Shown here: positions 57,360 through 61,457 of the stretch, in pieces
Numbering within the stretch: the stretch's first letter is position 1
Layout: each line of letters begins with the position of its first letter
From: Fodinibius halophilus
GTDB taxonomy: Bacteria > Bacteroidota > Rhodothermia > Balneolales > Balneolaceae
Direction of reading: 5' to 3'
DNA: 64,000 bases
Assembly (NCBI RefSeq): GCF_011059105.1
Contig: NZ_JAALLS010000007.1
Coordinates: 62,001-126,000 of the forward strand
Position numbers and translations under genes: made by a program
Notes under the pieces: model-generated
Databases searched by the model: none
What the model saw: the letters and a program-made list of their open reading frames with translations, nothing else
Told to the model about the DNA's origin: nothing

Positions 57360-57653
57360 ATGAACACAAGTGATTTGGTAAAAGCACTTGCAAACAATTG
57401 GGATATGAGCCAGGCCGAAACGCGCCGGTTGTTGGATACTATTGTTAACCGATTAACAGATAACCTGGCCAACGGTAATACTTTTACCATCCCAGAGCTT
57501 GGTACTTTCGAATTATCAACACGTGGAGAACGGGAATCTTATAATCCACACTATGAACAATATATGAAGATACCCCCTAAACGCGTTGTTGATTTTAAGC
57601 CCAGTAAGGGGTTAAAAGAAGATTTCAAACAAGTGGAGTCCGACAATGAGTGA
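57360..57653 (+). CDS. HU-family DNA-binding protein
   Basis: The 97-residue protein has the HU/IHF fold: N-terminal helical hairpin with 'LVKALANNWDMSQAETRRLL' and a beta-arm region 'FTIPELGTFELSTRGERESYN' with FKPSKGLKEDF at the end. The typical PxxG tip is changed to 'NPHYEQYMKIPPKR'. It overlaps the next HU-containing gene by 8 bases, so both are made together and could form a heterodimer. Confidence 0.9.
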   Translation: MNTSDLVKALANNWDMSQAETRRLLDTIVNRLTDNLANGNTFTIPELGTFELSTRGERESYNPHYEQYMKIPPKRVVDFKPSKGLKEDFKQVESDNE

Positions 57654-59199
57654 GAAAGTAACGTTTCAGGAACTCATTGAGTCGATTGCAGAAGAAAGTG
57701 ATAATTCTAAGCAATTCACTCACGATTTCCTCAAAGATTTTGTCGATGTCATCAATAATGGACTTGAAGAGGACGGGAATGTCAATATTGCCGGCTTTGG
57801 TAAGTTCAAGCTTCGGTTTGTCGAAGAACGAGAGGGGTATAACCCCCAAACCGAGGAAAAAATGACCATTCCTGCTCACAACAAGGTAGTTTTCAAGCCA
57901 TACAAAGGAATTCGCGAGCTGGTCAACGCCCCCTACTCTCACTTAGAACCCCAGCTTATTGAAAAAGATGAAGATGGGGATCCTAATGAAGAAGCTCCTG
58001 CTGCTGATCACGCGGACGAAACCTCTTCCGGTGAATCCGATTCTTCTTCTGGCGAAAGTGAAGGGAAAACAGCTAAGGAGAAGTACATAGAAGAGGATCC
58101 ATTCGGTTTTGAAGAGATGAGTTCAAAATCCTCATCAACATTTTCTCTGGAAGAAGATGAGGAGGTTGTTGACGAGGAAGAAGATGTTGTAGAATTTAAA
58201 CCCGATACTACCGAAGAAGAAACTGATGAAACGGAGCAGGATCTTGAAGAATTTATTGGGTCAGTGGAAGAGACCGAAGATGCGCCTGTAGAAGTAGAAT
58301 CAACAGAAGATTCTCCTGACCAAGATGAAGAAGAAATTACAGAAGAGAACACTTCTGAACCTATTGAAGAGGACGAAAAAGAGACTGAATCTGAGGAAGA
58401 GACAAAAATTGACTCCCCCTTTGCCTCGGTAAATACAAAATCTGATAAAGATGCTACTGGTCCGGATGACAAAGAGAAACAAAAAGATGATACTCAAATA
58501 TTGGATCGGCAACTGCCCGATCGTAAAGACAGTTCATCCTTACCAATAATAGCAGCAGCGATTTCTATTTTGGTACTTATAGCTGTTGGCGCATGGTATT
58601 TTGGGGTCTTTTCAACAGAGAGTTCTTCTCAGATGGCCGCACAACAAGCAATTTCATCAGCTCAAACCGAACAACAAGGCACTAATCAAAAAGAAAATAC
58701 AGTACCATCATCTAATAACGACAGTCAGTCTAAACCTTCTTCCAGCGAAGGACAACAACAGCCGGCCCAGAAGCAAGCTGCCAATAAGAACACCCAAAAG
58801 AAAAATCAGTCCACCTCATCAGCTTCACAACAAAAGGAACAACATGCTATTGCTGAAGGTCAAACACTCTGGAGCATAGCCGAAGATAAATATGGCAACC
58901 CACGGCTTTGGCCGTGGATCTATGGTAAGAATGGGTCGTTAAATGATCCTGACCTTATCATTGCAGGCAGTTCGCTAACCGTACCACTGCCCTCCGGTCC
59001 TCAGAATAGTTTAACTACTTCCGATTCGACAGGTGTTGCCAAAGGCTTTTTAGCCACCTATAAATGGTACAAGAAGCAGCAATCGCCAAAAGCAAAGAAT
59101 CATTTATGGGGAGCCAAAGTTTACTATAATGATATCCGAAATTTGGCTGATATCCCGATCGATGAAGCTGACCTTTCGTATGCCAATAAGGCCCGCTGA
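57646..59199 (+). CDS. HU-TM-LysM fusion protein
   Basis: This 517-residue protein joins three parts. Residues 1-95 are HU-like (NIAGFGKFKLRFVEEREGYN, IPAHNKVVFKPYKG). Residues about 105-295 are a long acidic, Ser-rich linker. Residues 299-322 are a transmembrane helix (LPIIAAAISILVLIAVGAWY). After a Gln/Ser linker, residues 400-448 are a LysM domain (AEGQTLWSIAEDKYGNPRLW). The HU part would be cytoplasmic and the LysM part periplasmic, bridging DNA and peptidoglycan. I know of CCDC81/HU-SPOR proteins in Bacteroidota; this LysM form may be the analogue. Confidence 0.88.
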   Translation: MSEKVTFQELIESIAEESDNSKQFTHDFLKDFVDVINNGLEEDGNVNIAGFGKFKLRFVEEREGYNPQTEEKMTIPAHNKVVFKPYKGIRELVNAPYSHLEPQLIEKDEDGDPNEEAPAADHADETSSGESDSSSGESEGKTAKEKYIEEDPFGFEEMSSKSSSTFSLEEDEEVVDEEEDVVEFKPDTTEEETDETEQDLEEFIGSVEETEDAPVEVESTEDSPDQDEEEITEENTSEPIEEDEKETESEEETKIDSPFASVNTKSDKDATGPDDKEKQKDDTQILDRQLPDRKDSSSLPIIAAAISILVLIAVGAWYFGVFSTESSSQMAAQQAISSAQTEQQGTNQKENTVPSSNNDSQSKPSSSEGQQQPAQKQAANKNTQKKNQSTSSASQQKEQHAIAEGQTLWSIAEDKYGNPRLWPWIYGKNGSLNDPDLIIAGSSLTVPLPSGPQNSLTTSDSTGVAKGFLATYKWYKKQQSPKAKNHLWGAKVYYNDIRNLADIPIDEADLSYANKAR

Positions 59200-59279: not shown

Positions 59280-59600
59280 ATGATTCGTCATATAGTAATG
59301 TGGAAATTAAAGGATGAAGCAGAAGGAGCCACTAAAGAGAAGAATGCTGAAAAAATGAAGCTGATTCTTGAAGGGCTCAAAACCAATATTGATGAAATAA
59401 AAAATGTAGAAGTCGGTATCAATATCAGTGAAGATGACGACGAGGCGGGCTCTCCGCATGATGTCGTATTAATCTCTGATTTTGAGTCCGAACTCGACTA
59501 TACGATGTATACTCGTAACGATCATCACAAAAAAGCTGTTAAATTTATAAACTCGGTTATTGAAGAACGCCACTTTGTGGATTATAAAGTAGATACTTAA
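59280..59600 (+). CDS. Dabb (stress-responsive alpha/beta barrel) protein
   Basis: The 106-residue protein has the Dabb domain start IRHIVMWKLKDEA and the 'VVLISDFESELDYTMYTRND' and HHKKAVKFI segments. Such proteins are small dimeric ferredoxin-like barrels of poorly known role, sometimes in stress response or as cyclases. A good purine-rich ribosome site (CAGGAGAAAT) lies before the ATG. It is followed by a strong terminator. Confidence 0.88.
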   Translation: MIRHIVMWKLKDEAEGATKEKNAEKMKLILEGLKTNIDEIKNVEVGINISEDDDEAGSPHDVVLISDFESELDYTMYTRNDHHKKAVKFINSVIEERHFVDYKVDT

Positions 59601-59656: not shown

Positions 59657-60466
59657 TTATCCCTTTCTTTGATCCAACATAAACTCTTGTGCTTCCTCAA
59701 CCACCCGTTTAAAAATACGTCGCTGAGACGGTACTTGGGGCATATATTCAGGATGCCATTGAACGCCCAGCACAAAATTGCTGTATTGATGCTCAATGGC
59801 TTGAATAATTCCCCTCTCCTCCCGAGCAACCACCGTCATATTATCTCCGGTCTCATCCACAGCCTGTCGATGCATCGCATTAACCCACACCGTCTGAAAC
59901 GTTAATACTTCGAATAATTTACTCTGCTCATCAATCTGTACCTTCTTTTTAGGCCAAACACTGTGGGGCCGCGGTACTTCTGTATAATAGTTCTCAATAT
60001 CTTGATGCAAGGTCCCGCCGAAATAGATATTCATTAATTGTGCACCTCTGCAGATGCCTAAAATAGGAATGCCCTTTTCTACGGCTCTATCCAACAGGTC
60101 CAACTCCATCTCATCACGAGCATTATCAATGCCCACCGAAGTCGTAGAAAACAGCTTGCGGAGCAAAATAATAATGGGGAAAAATAAAATTGTAGCGAGA
60201 CGAATAAGCAACTGGCGTATTCCCGATAGCTTCTGGTCTTCTGAAAGCAGCTCCCGTATTTGTGACTCCCCATATCTTTTGGGATTAATATCTGCTCCTC
60301 CCCCAATTATCAATCCATGAATATCAGCATCCGGAATTCCATCCTCAGGACGAATATGTATTGCGCGCCCCCCATGGATAGCTATTGCAAACCAGCTAAA
60401 CCACCAAGCAGCTGTTCCTCCCTTGTCCGGGCCTGTAACCCCAATGTTCGGTCGTCTGCTACTCAT
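59657..60466 (-). CDS. Class-I glutamine amidotransferase / peptidase C26-like
   Basis: The 269-residue protein has the C26 (gamma-glutamyl-GABA hydrolase) motifs: GLIIGGGADINPKRYG, the nucleophile ILGICRGAQLMN (Cys139) and the His/Glu of GVQWHPEYMP (H238, E240). A hydrophobic insert of about 25 residues (about 84-108: GIRQLLIRLATILFFPIIIL) is unusual and may dock to a membrane. It follows the amidoligase gene with an 8-base overlap and is therefore likely to work with it. Confidence 0.85.
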   Translation of the reverse strand: MSSRRPNIGVTGPDKGGTAAWWFSWFAIAIHGGRAIHIRPEDGIPDADIHGLIIGGGADINPKRYGESQIRELLSEDQKLSGIRQLLIRLATILFFPIIILLRKLFSTTSVGIDNARDEMELDLLDRAVEKGIPILGICRGAQLMNIYFGGTLHQDIENYYTEVPRPHSVWPKKKVQIDEQSKLFEVLTFQTVWVNAMHRQAVDETGDNMTVVAREERGIIQAIEHQYSNFVLGVQWHPEYMPQVPSQRRIFKRVVEEAQEFMLDQRKG

Positions 60467-61457
60467 CCAGATCTAAAAGTATAATTACTGTTCCTGCCCA
60501 TTCTTTTTTAAAAGAGATAACCGTTTCTTGCTTTCTGAGTAAATATAATCGACTTAGCTTCTTTAACATCTCTTTGTCTTCTGCCAGTTTCTCAACTTCC
60601 AGCCAATATTTCCATTCTGTTTCGAACCTCCATTCCGGATTATCAATGCGGCTATTGGGCAAACGATAATGAAAAGTAGGTCGCGGATCATTTTTTTCGC
60701 CCTCCATCACCGGTTTTACCAGCTCGGGTTCCAGTAAACCAAAAACAGGCATCATATCAATCGGACGATTCCGGGTTGGGTTCCTATCAATATAATCTTG
60801 GACCATTTGCACTTGATCAGGTTGATATTCCGGATCCAACACTTTGCGCACATACTTATCGGGAAACGGATCAACAAAGGGCGAAATACGTCGTGAAATA
60901 TCGATATTCAACGTTTCCAGAAGCCACGGATACAAAATCATGAAAGAACGCAGATAGTCAATAAGTGTAGACACTTCGAGATCCGGCGATTCTATATTAA
61001 TATGCATTCCAAAGGCATTAACAAAAGAGGCATGTGTACCCTTGGCCTTATCCTCTTGCAGTCTGCTGCGTAGCGTTTCAAGCTGTTTAAGCTCTTCTAC
61101 TGGTAAAGGAGGCATTACAATTTCTAACGGCACAACGGAACGGGCCATTTTATCAATAGCATCTTCAATTGACTTTCGAAGGGAGTCTTCTTCTAGTTTA
61201 ATACCCCACCGATCAAGGATATTGTGTTCAGCCATCTTTTGCAGAATACGAGCATCAAGCTCAACCCGGAAGTCCCCCAATGATGTCCCCTCAATACGGT
61301 AGTGATACCGATGTTCTTTAGTTATAGCCCCTCCGTAGAGCGAAGTGATAATTTCTGCCGCCCGTTGTGGCTCTATACCGGCAAATTCCAGTTCAAACCC
61401 AACTTTTCGGTACTCCCCCCTCGCATTGTTTTGTGTAGGCGGTAATTTGTAGGTCAT
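60459..61457 (-). CDS. Amidoligase-family protein
   Basis: The 332-residue protein resembles the amidoligase (COOH-NH2 ligase, glutamine-synthetase-like) family defined by Iyer and Aravind. Features include VGFELEFAGIEP (25-36), RVELDARILQKMAEHN, a conserved 'VNAFGMHINIESPD' block, and a helical C-terminal part. Such ligases join an amine and a carboxylate with ATP; the pairing with a glutamine amidotransferase is typical of the family. The product is unknown. It overlaps the amidotransferase gene by 8 bases. Confidence 0.85.
   Translation of the reverse strand: MTYKLPPTQNNARGEYRKVGFELEFAGIEPQRAAEIITSLYGGAITKEHRYHYRIEGTSLGDFRVELDARILQKMAEHNILDRWGIKLEEDSLRKSIEDAIDKMARSVVPLEIVMPPLPVEELKQLETLRSRLQEDKAKGTHASFVNAFGMHINIESPDLEVSTLIDYLRSFMILYPWLLETLNIDISRRISPFVDPFPDKYVRKVLDPEYQPDQVQMVQDYIDRNPTRNRPIDMMPVFGLLEPELVKPVMEGEKNDPRPTFHYRLPNSRIDNPEWRFETEWKYWLEVEKLAEDKEMLKKLSRLYLLRKQETVISFKKEWAGTVIILLDLDE

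Follow-up and report, generated by a model that had tools for sequence, protein, structure and literature searches.

A membrane-anchored HU-LysM protein and its HU partner gene in Fodinibius halophilus: a candidate link between nucleoid and cell wall

Introduction

The joining of a DNA-binding HU fold to a membrane helix and a wall-associated domain has a precedent in the Bacteroidota. Burroughs et al. reportedly foresaw an architecture of HU, transmembrane (TM) helix and wall domain with SPOR as the wall module, and they are said to have predicted a role in chromosome partitioning for the HU-CCDC81-TM-SPOR proteins of this phylum. Their study (Burroughs et al., 2017, Cell Cycle 16:1093) is cited in PMC7016017. 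Other points of comparison come from proteins of different build. HubP, according to PMC8789113, is a binder of ParA1 and influences where the chr1 origin lies. According to PMC8233713, Rv3852 is a nucleoid-associated protein that is anchored by a TM helix, is tied to wall synthesis and works through Wag31.

Here, we describe a gene pair from a window of 64,000 nucleotides of the Fodinibius halophilus genome (Balneolaceae; contig NZ_JAALLS010000007.1, positions 62,001 to 126,000). An initial annotation, made from the DNA letters alone, had proposed that one of the encoded proteins unites an HU domain, a TM helix and a LysM domain and could couple DNA to the wall. We call the small upstream HU gene HU-A and the HU domain of the fusion protein HU-B.

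The Gene Pair and Its Domains

The layout of the pair is given in Table 1. The overlap of 8 bases with the upstream HU gene, read off in the initial annotation, agrees with the two open reading frames (57360-57653 and 57646-59199), and the proposed domain limits hold up well. The HU fold, put at residues 1-95, is matched by PF00216 over residues 7-94 with an E-value (9.6e-25) that passes the cut-off; the acidic linker, estimated at about 190 residues, measures 202 (residues 96-297, 38.6% D/E, net charge -62); the TM helix expected at 299-322 coincides with a model helix over these residues, the highest 19-residue hydropathy (2.51) lying at 298-316; and the LysM domain assigned to residues 400-448 is supported as a fold at about 396-448 by a profile match and a superposition. 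The helical C-terminus (residues 458-516), seen in the AlphaFold model and in the family profile, is a conserved part absent from that annotation.

Table 1. Positions of the HU pair and of its parts within the window.
Feature	Position	Strand	Evidence and remarks
HU-A gene	57360..57653	+	97-aa partner HU; translational overlap with next gene; PF00216 E 4.1e-23
HU-A structure	57360..57653	+	AlphaFold mean pLDDT 85.6; HU helices and beta-arm; member of HU-A clade
GGAG, ribosome-site-like	57635..57638	+	within HU-A, 7 nt 5' of HU-B start; read from sequence
HU-B-TM-LysM fusion	57646..59199	+	ATG start, 517 aa; orthologs in three groups
HU-B domain, residues 7-94	57664..57927	+	PF00216 E 9.6e-25; fold match to HU-DNA 1p71
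Acidic disordered linker, predicted cytoplasmic, residues 96-297	57931..58536	+	net -62, 38.6% D/E; mostly pLDDT <50
TM helix, residues 299-322	58540..58611	+	hydropathy 2.51; model helix; K/R asymmetry across family
Q/S/N-rich linker, predicted periplasmic, residues 323-395	58612..58830	+	composition; pLDDT low over most
LysM domain, residues 396-448	58831..58989	+	sub-cut-off PRK11198 match; Kbp profile match 4.5e-10; superposition rmsd 0.8/54 residues
Conserved C-terminal helical segment, residues 458-516	59017..59193	+	pLDDT mostly 90-97; conserved with LysM in A5 profile

Distribution Across Bacteria

The relatives searched numbered 58 including the source genome, 35 of the Balneolaceae and 23 of other families of the order. 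Among the matches listed, the fusion was found in 25 of the 35 Balneolaceae genomes and not found in 10, four of them of the same genus, and the module is therefore not universal in the family; in the 23 genomes from other families, the best matches listed were of HU length only. A scan of named genomes, for which the best 80 of 439 loci were considered, contained 40 that parse as HU-TM fusions (L068, cut by its contig, is unparsed). Its members include Aliifodinibius salipaludis, Rhodohalobacter halophilus and Gracilimonas mengyeensis, a KSB1 MAG (L074) and the gammaproteobacterial MAGs L076 and L077 (contig-cut), to which L085 was added by hand reading. One copy labelled Chitinophagaceae (L042) is Balneolaceae-like, and its label may be wrong.

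The profile A5, made from the C-terminal part of the protein (LysM plus helical segment), matched 39 of 394 sampled Bacteroidota genomes at E<=3.3e-30, all of them Balneolaceae. The next match stands at 5e-16, and those after it are confined to roughly the LysM half of A5; these weaker matches, not inspected singly, are read as probable ordinary LysM proteins. The initial annotation had suggested a search for HU-TM-LysM in other phyla, and the same profile located it in KSB1 and in the Gammaproteobacteria. Of the 82 KSB1 genomes, 18 have a match at 1e-15 and 15 were confirmed as HU-TM-LysM; the three rows set aside are L152, which an edge truncates, L155, for which no ORF could be resolved, and L164. 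Six of 369 sampled gammaproteobacterial genomes match and 4/369 carry the HU part. Dropped there were L170, whose chosen ORF is not a LysM fusion, and L169, a gammaproteobacterial TM-LysM-helix protein of 195 aa with an ORF that lacks an HU domain. At E<=1e-15, the profile found 0/297 in the phylum around L079 (Syntrophobacteraceae) and 0/289 in the class around L075 (Alphaproteobacteria), empty results that say little by themselves, and 10/147 in the phylum around L106 (WOR-3), where all ten were read as LysM proteins that lack HU and have a hydrophobic stretch near the N-terminus.

The Partner Gene and the History of the Two Halves

The pairing with an upstream HU gene, pointed out initially for the window, recurs across the family. 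An HU gene lies directly upstream in 23/23 parsed Balneolaceae loci (of 25; L025 and L026 are outside the parsed set), with an overlap of 8 bases in 13, of 4 in 5, of 11 in 2 and of 1 in 1, and with a 2-base gap in 2. The named-genome scan has it in 39/40 parsed loci, overlapping by 8 bases in 24/40 and by 4 in 8/40; the 65-base overlap at L063 and the missing partner at L065 may both stem from over-extended starts. KSB1 shows the partner in 12/15 loci, 10 of which overlap by 4 or 8 bases, an over-extended start being a possible reason for the three loci without a detected partner. In one relative (L017, genome G022) the ortholog has its frame broken after the TM segment and its LysM part in another frame, and this locus was left out of alignment A1.

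A tree of 79 HU domains (92 columns) was built from 30 chosen pairs (14 from Balneolaceae, 11 from KSB1 and 5 gammaproteobacterial) and 19 other HUs. All 30 HU-A fall into one clade (support 96/93, starred) and all 30 HU-B into another (99/95, starred), each spanning the three groups. The HU-A of L167 is flagged as a long branch, and 25 inner branches stay open, leaving the inner branching order uncertain. A starred set of nine unites the gammaproteobacterial HU-B sequences with four KSB1 rows, which hints at a transfer. Distances among HU-A and among HU-B are correlated (r 0.607), a value reached in 0 of 2000 within-phylum partner shuffles; the correlation suits a co-evolving pair, but equally simple co-inheritance of an operon.

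Fold, Arm Residues and Charge of the HU Domains

Both halves belong to the HU/IHF superfamily, with PF00216 scores of 87.1 bits for HU-B and 81.9 bits for HU-A against a gathering score of 22.4. The AlphaFold model of HU-B has a pLDDT of about 90 over the HU part and matches the Anabaena HU-DNA complex 1p71 (Foldseek E 1.1e-6; VIA Z 9.9, rmsd 3.8). The DNA-wedging arm proline P63 is present in 54/57 HU-B domains in a wider recount (27/30 in the tree set), as is R58 (54/57); position 61 is R in 15/57 and has lost it in 42/57, and R55 occurs in 0/57. Among 30 HU-A sequences, P63 is found in 27/30, R58 in 16/30, R55 in 18/30 and R61 in 0/30, position 61 being Y or F in 29/30. The arm residues of HU-A and HU-B thus differ in a complementary fashion, a pattern that an asymmetric DNA-bending heterodimer with different contacts in each half would be expected to show. 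The HU-A arm is mostly missing in one gammaproteobacterium whose HU-B arm stays, and the HU-B arm of L154 is much shortened.

The main caution on a DNA-binding reading is the acidic HU domain of the window, together with the loss across the family of most other arm arginines. Net charge in the window is -6 for HU-B and 0 for HU-A. It ranges from -8 to +8 (mean +0.4) in 37 other Balneolaceae HU-B domains and averages +5.4 in 29 canonical HUs, the canonical HUs of the source genome having +2 and +4. Against these basic canonical HUs, the value of -6 means that DNA affinity may be weak here, and the absence of R55 from 57/57 HU-B slightly lowers our confidence in a DNA-wall tether. The HU-B domains of L074, L076 and L077, the only three of KSB1 and gammaproteobacterial origin with a computed charge, stand at +7, +8 and +8. 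Acidic proteins are common in halophiles, and HU folds have been turned to protein binding elsewhere (CCDC81).

Linkers, Membrane Topology and the C-Terminal Part

That the chain crosses the inner membrane with HU inside and LysM outside was a further proposal of the initial annotation, and the topology prediction agrees: K and R are more frequent in the 20 residues before the TM helix than in the 20 after it in 49/53 proteins, with the reverse in 2/53. Across the family, the cytoplasmic linker is between 32 and 266 residues long, a spread more in keeping with a tether than with a rigid relay of signals. The window linker (57931-58536) contains a DPFxF-like motif, EEDPFGFEE. Motifs of this kind occur in 9/35 linkers vs 0.7 expected from shuffles, only in some Balneolaceae with long linkers, and in 0/14 KSB1 and 0/4 gammaproteobacterial linkers. 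A universal docking motif in the linker was rejected because these motifs are confined to some Balneolaceae. RFDFAE-like motifs are seen in some KSB1 members.

The LysM assignment draws on profiles and on the model. The window protein has no match to PF01476 (LysM), whose gathering score is reached neither there nor by the ortholog LysM hits with scores examined; at E<=0.01 the family matches 8 of 39 rows (one row twice, best 0.0015), and L074 comes to 18.9 bits against a gathering score of 20.9. The NCBIfam model PRK11198 (YgaU/Kbp) aligns over residues 386-447 with E 4.8e-7 and 30.3 bits, far below its cut-off of 134 bits. The family profile matches the LysM domains of Kbp (7pvc, E 4.5e-10), TsaP (1.6e-7) and Ecp6 (5.7e-5), as well as SafA. 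Model residues 397-450 superpose on the Kbp LysM with an rmsd of 0.8 over 54 residues and a Z of 6.9, where a Z below 8 alone may mean little, and weakly on the chitin-bound Ecp6 LysM 4b8v (Z 5.8). The model has the beta-alpha-alpha-beta arrangement of a LysM fold, as predicted by AlphaFold. Kbp, the nearest solved LysM, is a potassium-binding protein. In the alignment, the G-x-[ST]-L-W motif of LysM is missing from several orthologs and worn in some clades; its pattern is present in 36/40 parsed loci and missed in L042, L045, L053 and the contig-cut L077. The VIA structure comparison barely covers the C-terminal helices.

Genomic Neighborhood

The pair is flanked in the window by an aconitase-like ORF (recognized by eye), whose counterpart in L048 matches PF00330, and by a Dabb-domain gene. 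The latter lies 3' of the module at 59280-59600, and likewise at L048:6749-7060 and L038:7046-7366 (Aliifodinibius, Rhodohalobacter). At window positions 59657-61457 on the minus strand, an Amidoligase_2 gene overlaps a peptidase C26/GATase gene by 8 bases, forming a ligase-hydrolase pair, and a C26 gene also adjoins the module in L009, L010 and L013 (by eye). The neighbors in L064 are HemN-like and fumarylacetoacetase genes. In L076:426-4989 the module stands 3' of Ser/Thr kinase, PP2C phosphatase and FHA genes, with the same layout in L077 (by eye), and response-regulator-like ORFs adjoin the pair in L085 and L074 (by eye). The idea of a further conserved operon partner, besides the HU pair itself, was rejected, as no neighbor is common to the window, L038, L048, L064 and L076. 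A tblastn search with the C-terminal 121 aa found nothing at 1e-5, either among 72,556 plasmid records or among 50,697 phage records, and a mobile element was rejected on this ground.

A Second HU Pair in the Same Genome

The existence of HU-SPOR fusions in Bacteroidota, stated in the initial annotation, is borne out by a gene of the source genome itself and by a SPOR match in 2/3 HU-CCDC81 proteins tested. At L005:1286-2601 (contig C12 of the same genome), a small HU gene overlaps by 4 bases a gene for an armless HU, acidic region, TM helix and SPOR domain, followed by a MotA/TolQ/ExbB gene. The HU-SPOR protein is matched in 57/58 relatives at E<=1e-5, in some over the SPOR end only, and a small HU-like ORF lies upstream of the HU-SPOR gene in 28/30 loci. 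PF18174 was detected in 15/99 sampled Bacteroidota genomes, none of them in Balneolaceae, and the HU-CCDC81 proteins tested carry PF18174 and PF18175 in one chain (3/3). Since the HU-SPOR pair of the source genome matches PF18175 and PF18174 below the cut-offs only, layout and weak matches are what ties it to the one-chain form. Subject to this caveat, the double HU in one chain provides a Rosetta-stone argument that the HU units may work in pairs. A 504-aa TM protein of another genome (L200, G037) starts with a small HU-A-like unit (by eye), and the two HU units may be fused there. The HU-B domains of the HU-SPOR proteins examined are armless and those of the LysM type are armed, which makes the latter the more promising of the two for gripping DNA.

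Interpretation

The reading we favor, as somewhat more likely than not, is that HU-A and HU-B join in a heterodimer on DNA and that the membrane-spanning chain fastens this heterodimer to peptidoglycan, tethering the nucleoid to the wall. HU-A and the N-terminal HU-B domain would form an asymmetric heterodimer whose two beta-arms would grip and bend DNA; HU-B would sit on the flexible cytoplasmic linker, followed by a single pass through the inner membrane, and the periplasmic linker would put LysM and the small helical domain onto peptidoglycan. The pair would thus hold the nucleoid to the wall transiently and at many sites, and could help to place or organize the chromosome with respect to growth of the envelope or to division. 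The computations give the domain anatomy, the predicted topology, the gene pairing, the single clade for each half and the retention of the arm proline; to these the tether reading adds, by inference, heterodimerization, binding to DNA in the cell and to peptidoglycan, and a role in the cell. Recurrence in three distant groups makes the pair a good candidate for physically linking chromosome and cell wall.

Several features would also suit an HU pair that now serves mainly as a protein-binding adaptor, joining the wall, via the TM helix and LysM, to a cytoplasmic protein of cell division or shape. Eukaryotic CCDC81 and RodZ, with its HTH domain, are precedents; HU-B is net acidic in F. halophilus and near zero in the family mean, R61 is lost in 42/57 HU-B and 30/30 HU-A, the HU-B domains of the HU-SPOR relatives are armless, and the DPFxF-like motifs enriched in some linkers suggest docking sites. 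This adaptor is nevertheless unlikely, given that P63 and R58 are each kept in 54/57 HU-B over three groups and that the three KSB1 and gammaproteobacterial HU-B domains with computed charge are basic. A related doubt concerns the other end of the chain, where LysM might not bind glycan and the C-terminal part might instead dock on a periplasmic protein, linking DNA to an envelope machine. Loss of the LysM motif in some clades, the conserved extra helical domain and the position of Kbp as nearest solved LysM speak for such docking, which would be compatible with the first half of the tether reading; the weak superposition on the chitin-bound Ecp6 LysM 4b8v (Z 5.8) as well and the profile matches to Ecp6, TsaP and SafA speak against it, and we consider it quite unlikely.

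A DNA-binding protein with a single TM helix and a periplasmic sensor is a familiar design, and signaling genes adjoin some copies (kinase, PP2C and FHA in L076/L077, response-regulator-like ORFs in L085 and L074). A membrane-bound regulator, in which LysM senses the state of the wall and HU-A/HU-B alters transcription at specific sites, is improbable all the same: the linker varies from 32 to 266 residues, no neighbor is common to the clades examined, and no ligand-driven switch is known for HU/IHF folds. A chance fusion, an assembly artefact or a mobile gene can practically be dismissed. One relative (G022) does have a frame broken after the TM helix, but the 40 parsed loci come from separate assemblies, cultured strains included, tblastn with the C-terminal 121 aa found nothing at 1e-5 in the plasmid and phage records, and recurrence with the same partner argues strongly against it; chance fusion and misassembly were rejected by the recurrence of the architecture.

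A bolder form of the tether reading, which we hold tentatively and at a little under even confidence, would see in the pair an ancient and as yet undescribed two-gene device that also moved between phyla, an obligate HU-A/HU-B heterodimer dedicated to anchoring the chromosome to peptidoglycan, in some bacteria alongside a second link based on HU-SPOR. If this were true, two glycan readers of different kinds would hold the nucleoid to the wall there. One protein reaching from DNA across the membrane to peptidoglycan would, if real, be a molecular answer to how the nucleoid feels or follows the growing envelope, and it could be tested with two small genes. The recurrence in three groups, with one clade per HU half, marks a conserved device and not a curiosity of one genome.

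Comparison with Known Systems

HU and IHF share with HU-A/HU-B the fold, the arm and the scheme of an IHF-style heterodimer, the latter being predicted here; HU-A/HU-B differ in being membrane-bound, in the LysM tail and in the HU-A signature of Y/F at arm position 61. HubP has its LysM at the N-terminus, i.e., its domain order is opposite to that of HU-TM-LysM. The fusion has no match to the FimV model among its Pfam and NCBIfam matches and, with its order reversed, falls outside the HubP/FimV family. The two nevertheless share a periplasmic LysM, a single TM helix, an acidic cytosolic region and a chromosome-linked function, the last being predicted for HU-TM-LysM; HubP/FimV differs in its C-terminal TPR and its binding of ParA1, whereas HU-B carries a DNA-binding fold of its own. 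HubP, which acts on the position of a chromosome origin (PMC8789113), offers a working analogy. Rv3852, in contrast, is annotated as H-NS, not HU, and the excerpted text of PMC8233713 mentions no wall-binding domain for it.

The closest system is HU-CCDC81 (PF18174+PF18175)-TM-SPOR, which likewise has cytoplasmic HU, one TM helix, a periplasmic peptidoglycan-associated domain and two HU units. In the present module, LysM and helices replace SPOR and the HU units are split over two overlapping genes. The fusion has no SPOR match, reaches 18.7 bits with PF18175 against a required 35 and has no match to PF18174, which sets it apart from the HU-CCDC81 models. Arms bearing the wedge proline are usual in HU-A and HU-B; those of the HU-SPOR domains examined are short and lack it, or are missing altogether. 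The HU-TM-LysM module, unlike HU-SPOR, also occurs in KSB1 and Gammaproteobacteria. No description of HU-TM-LysM was found in the open-access papers searched. The nearest known kind is therefore the HU-TM-wall-domain protein exemplified by HU-SPOR, and what is new here is a LysM version of it with a separate HU partner gene.
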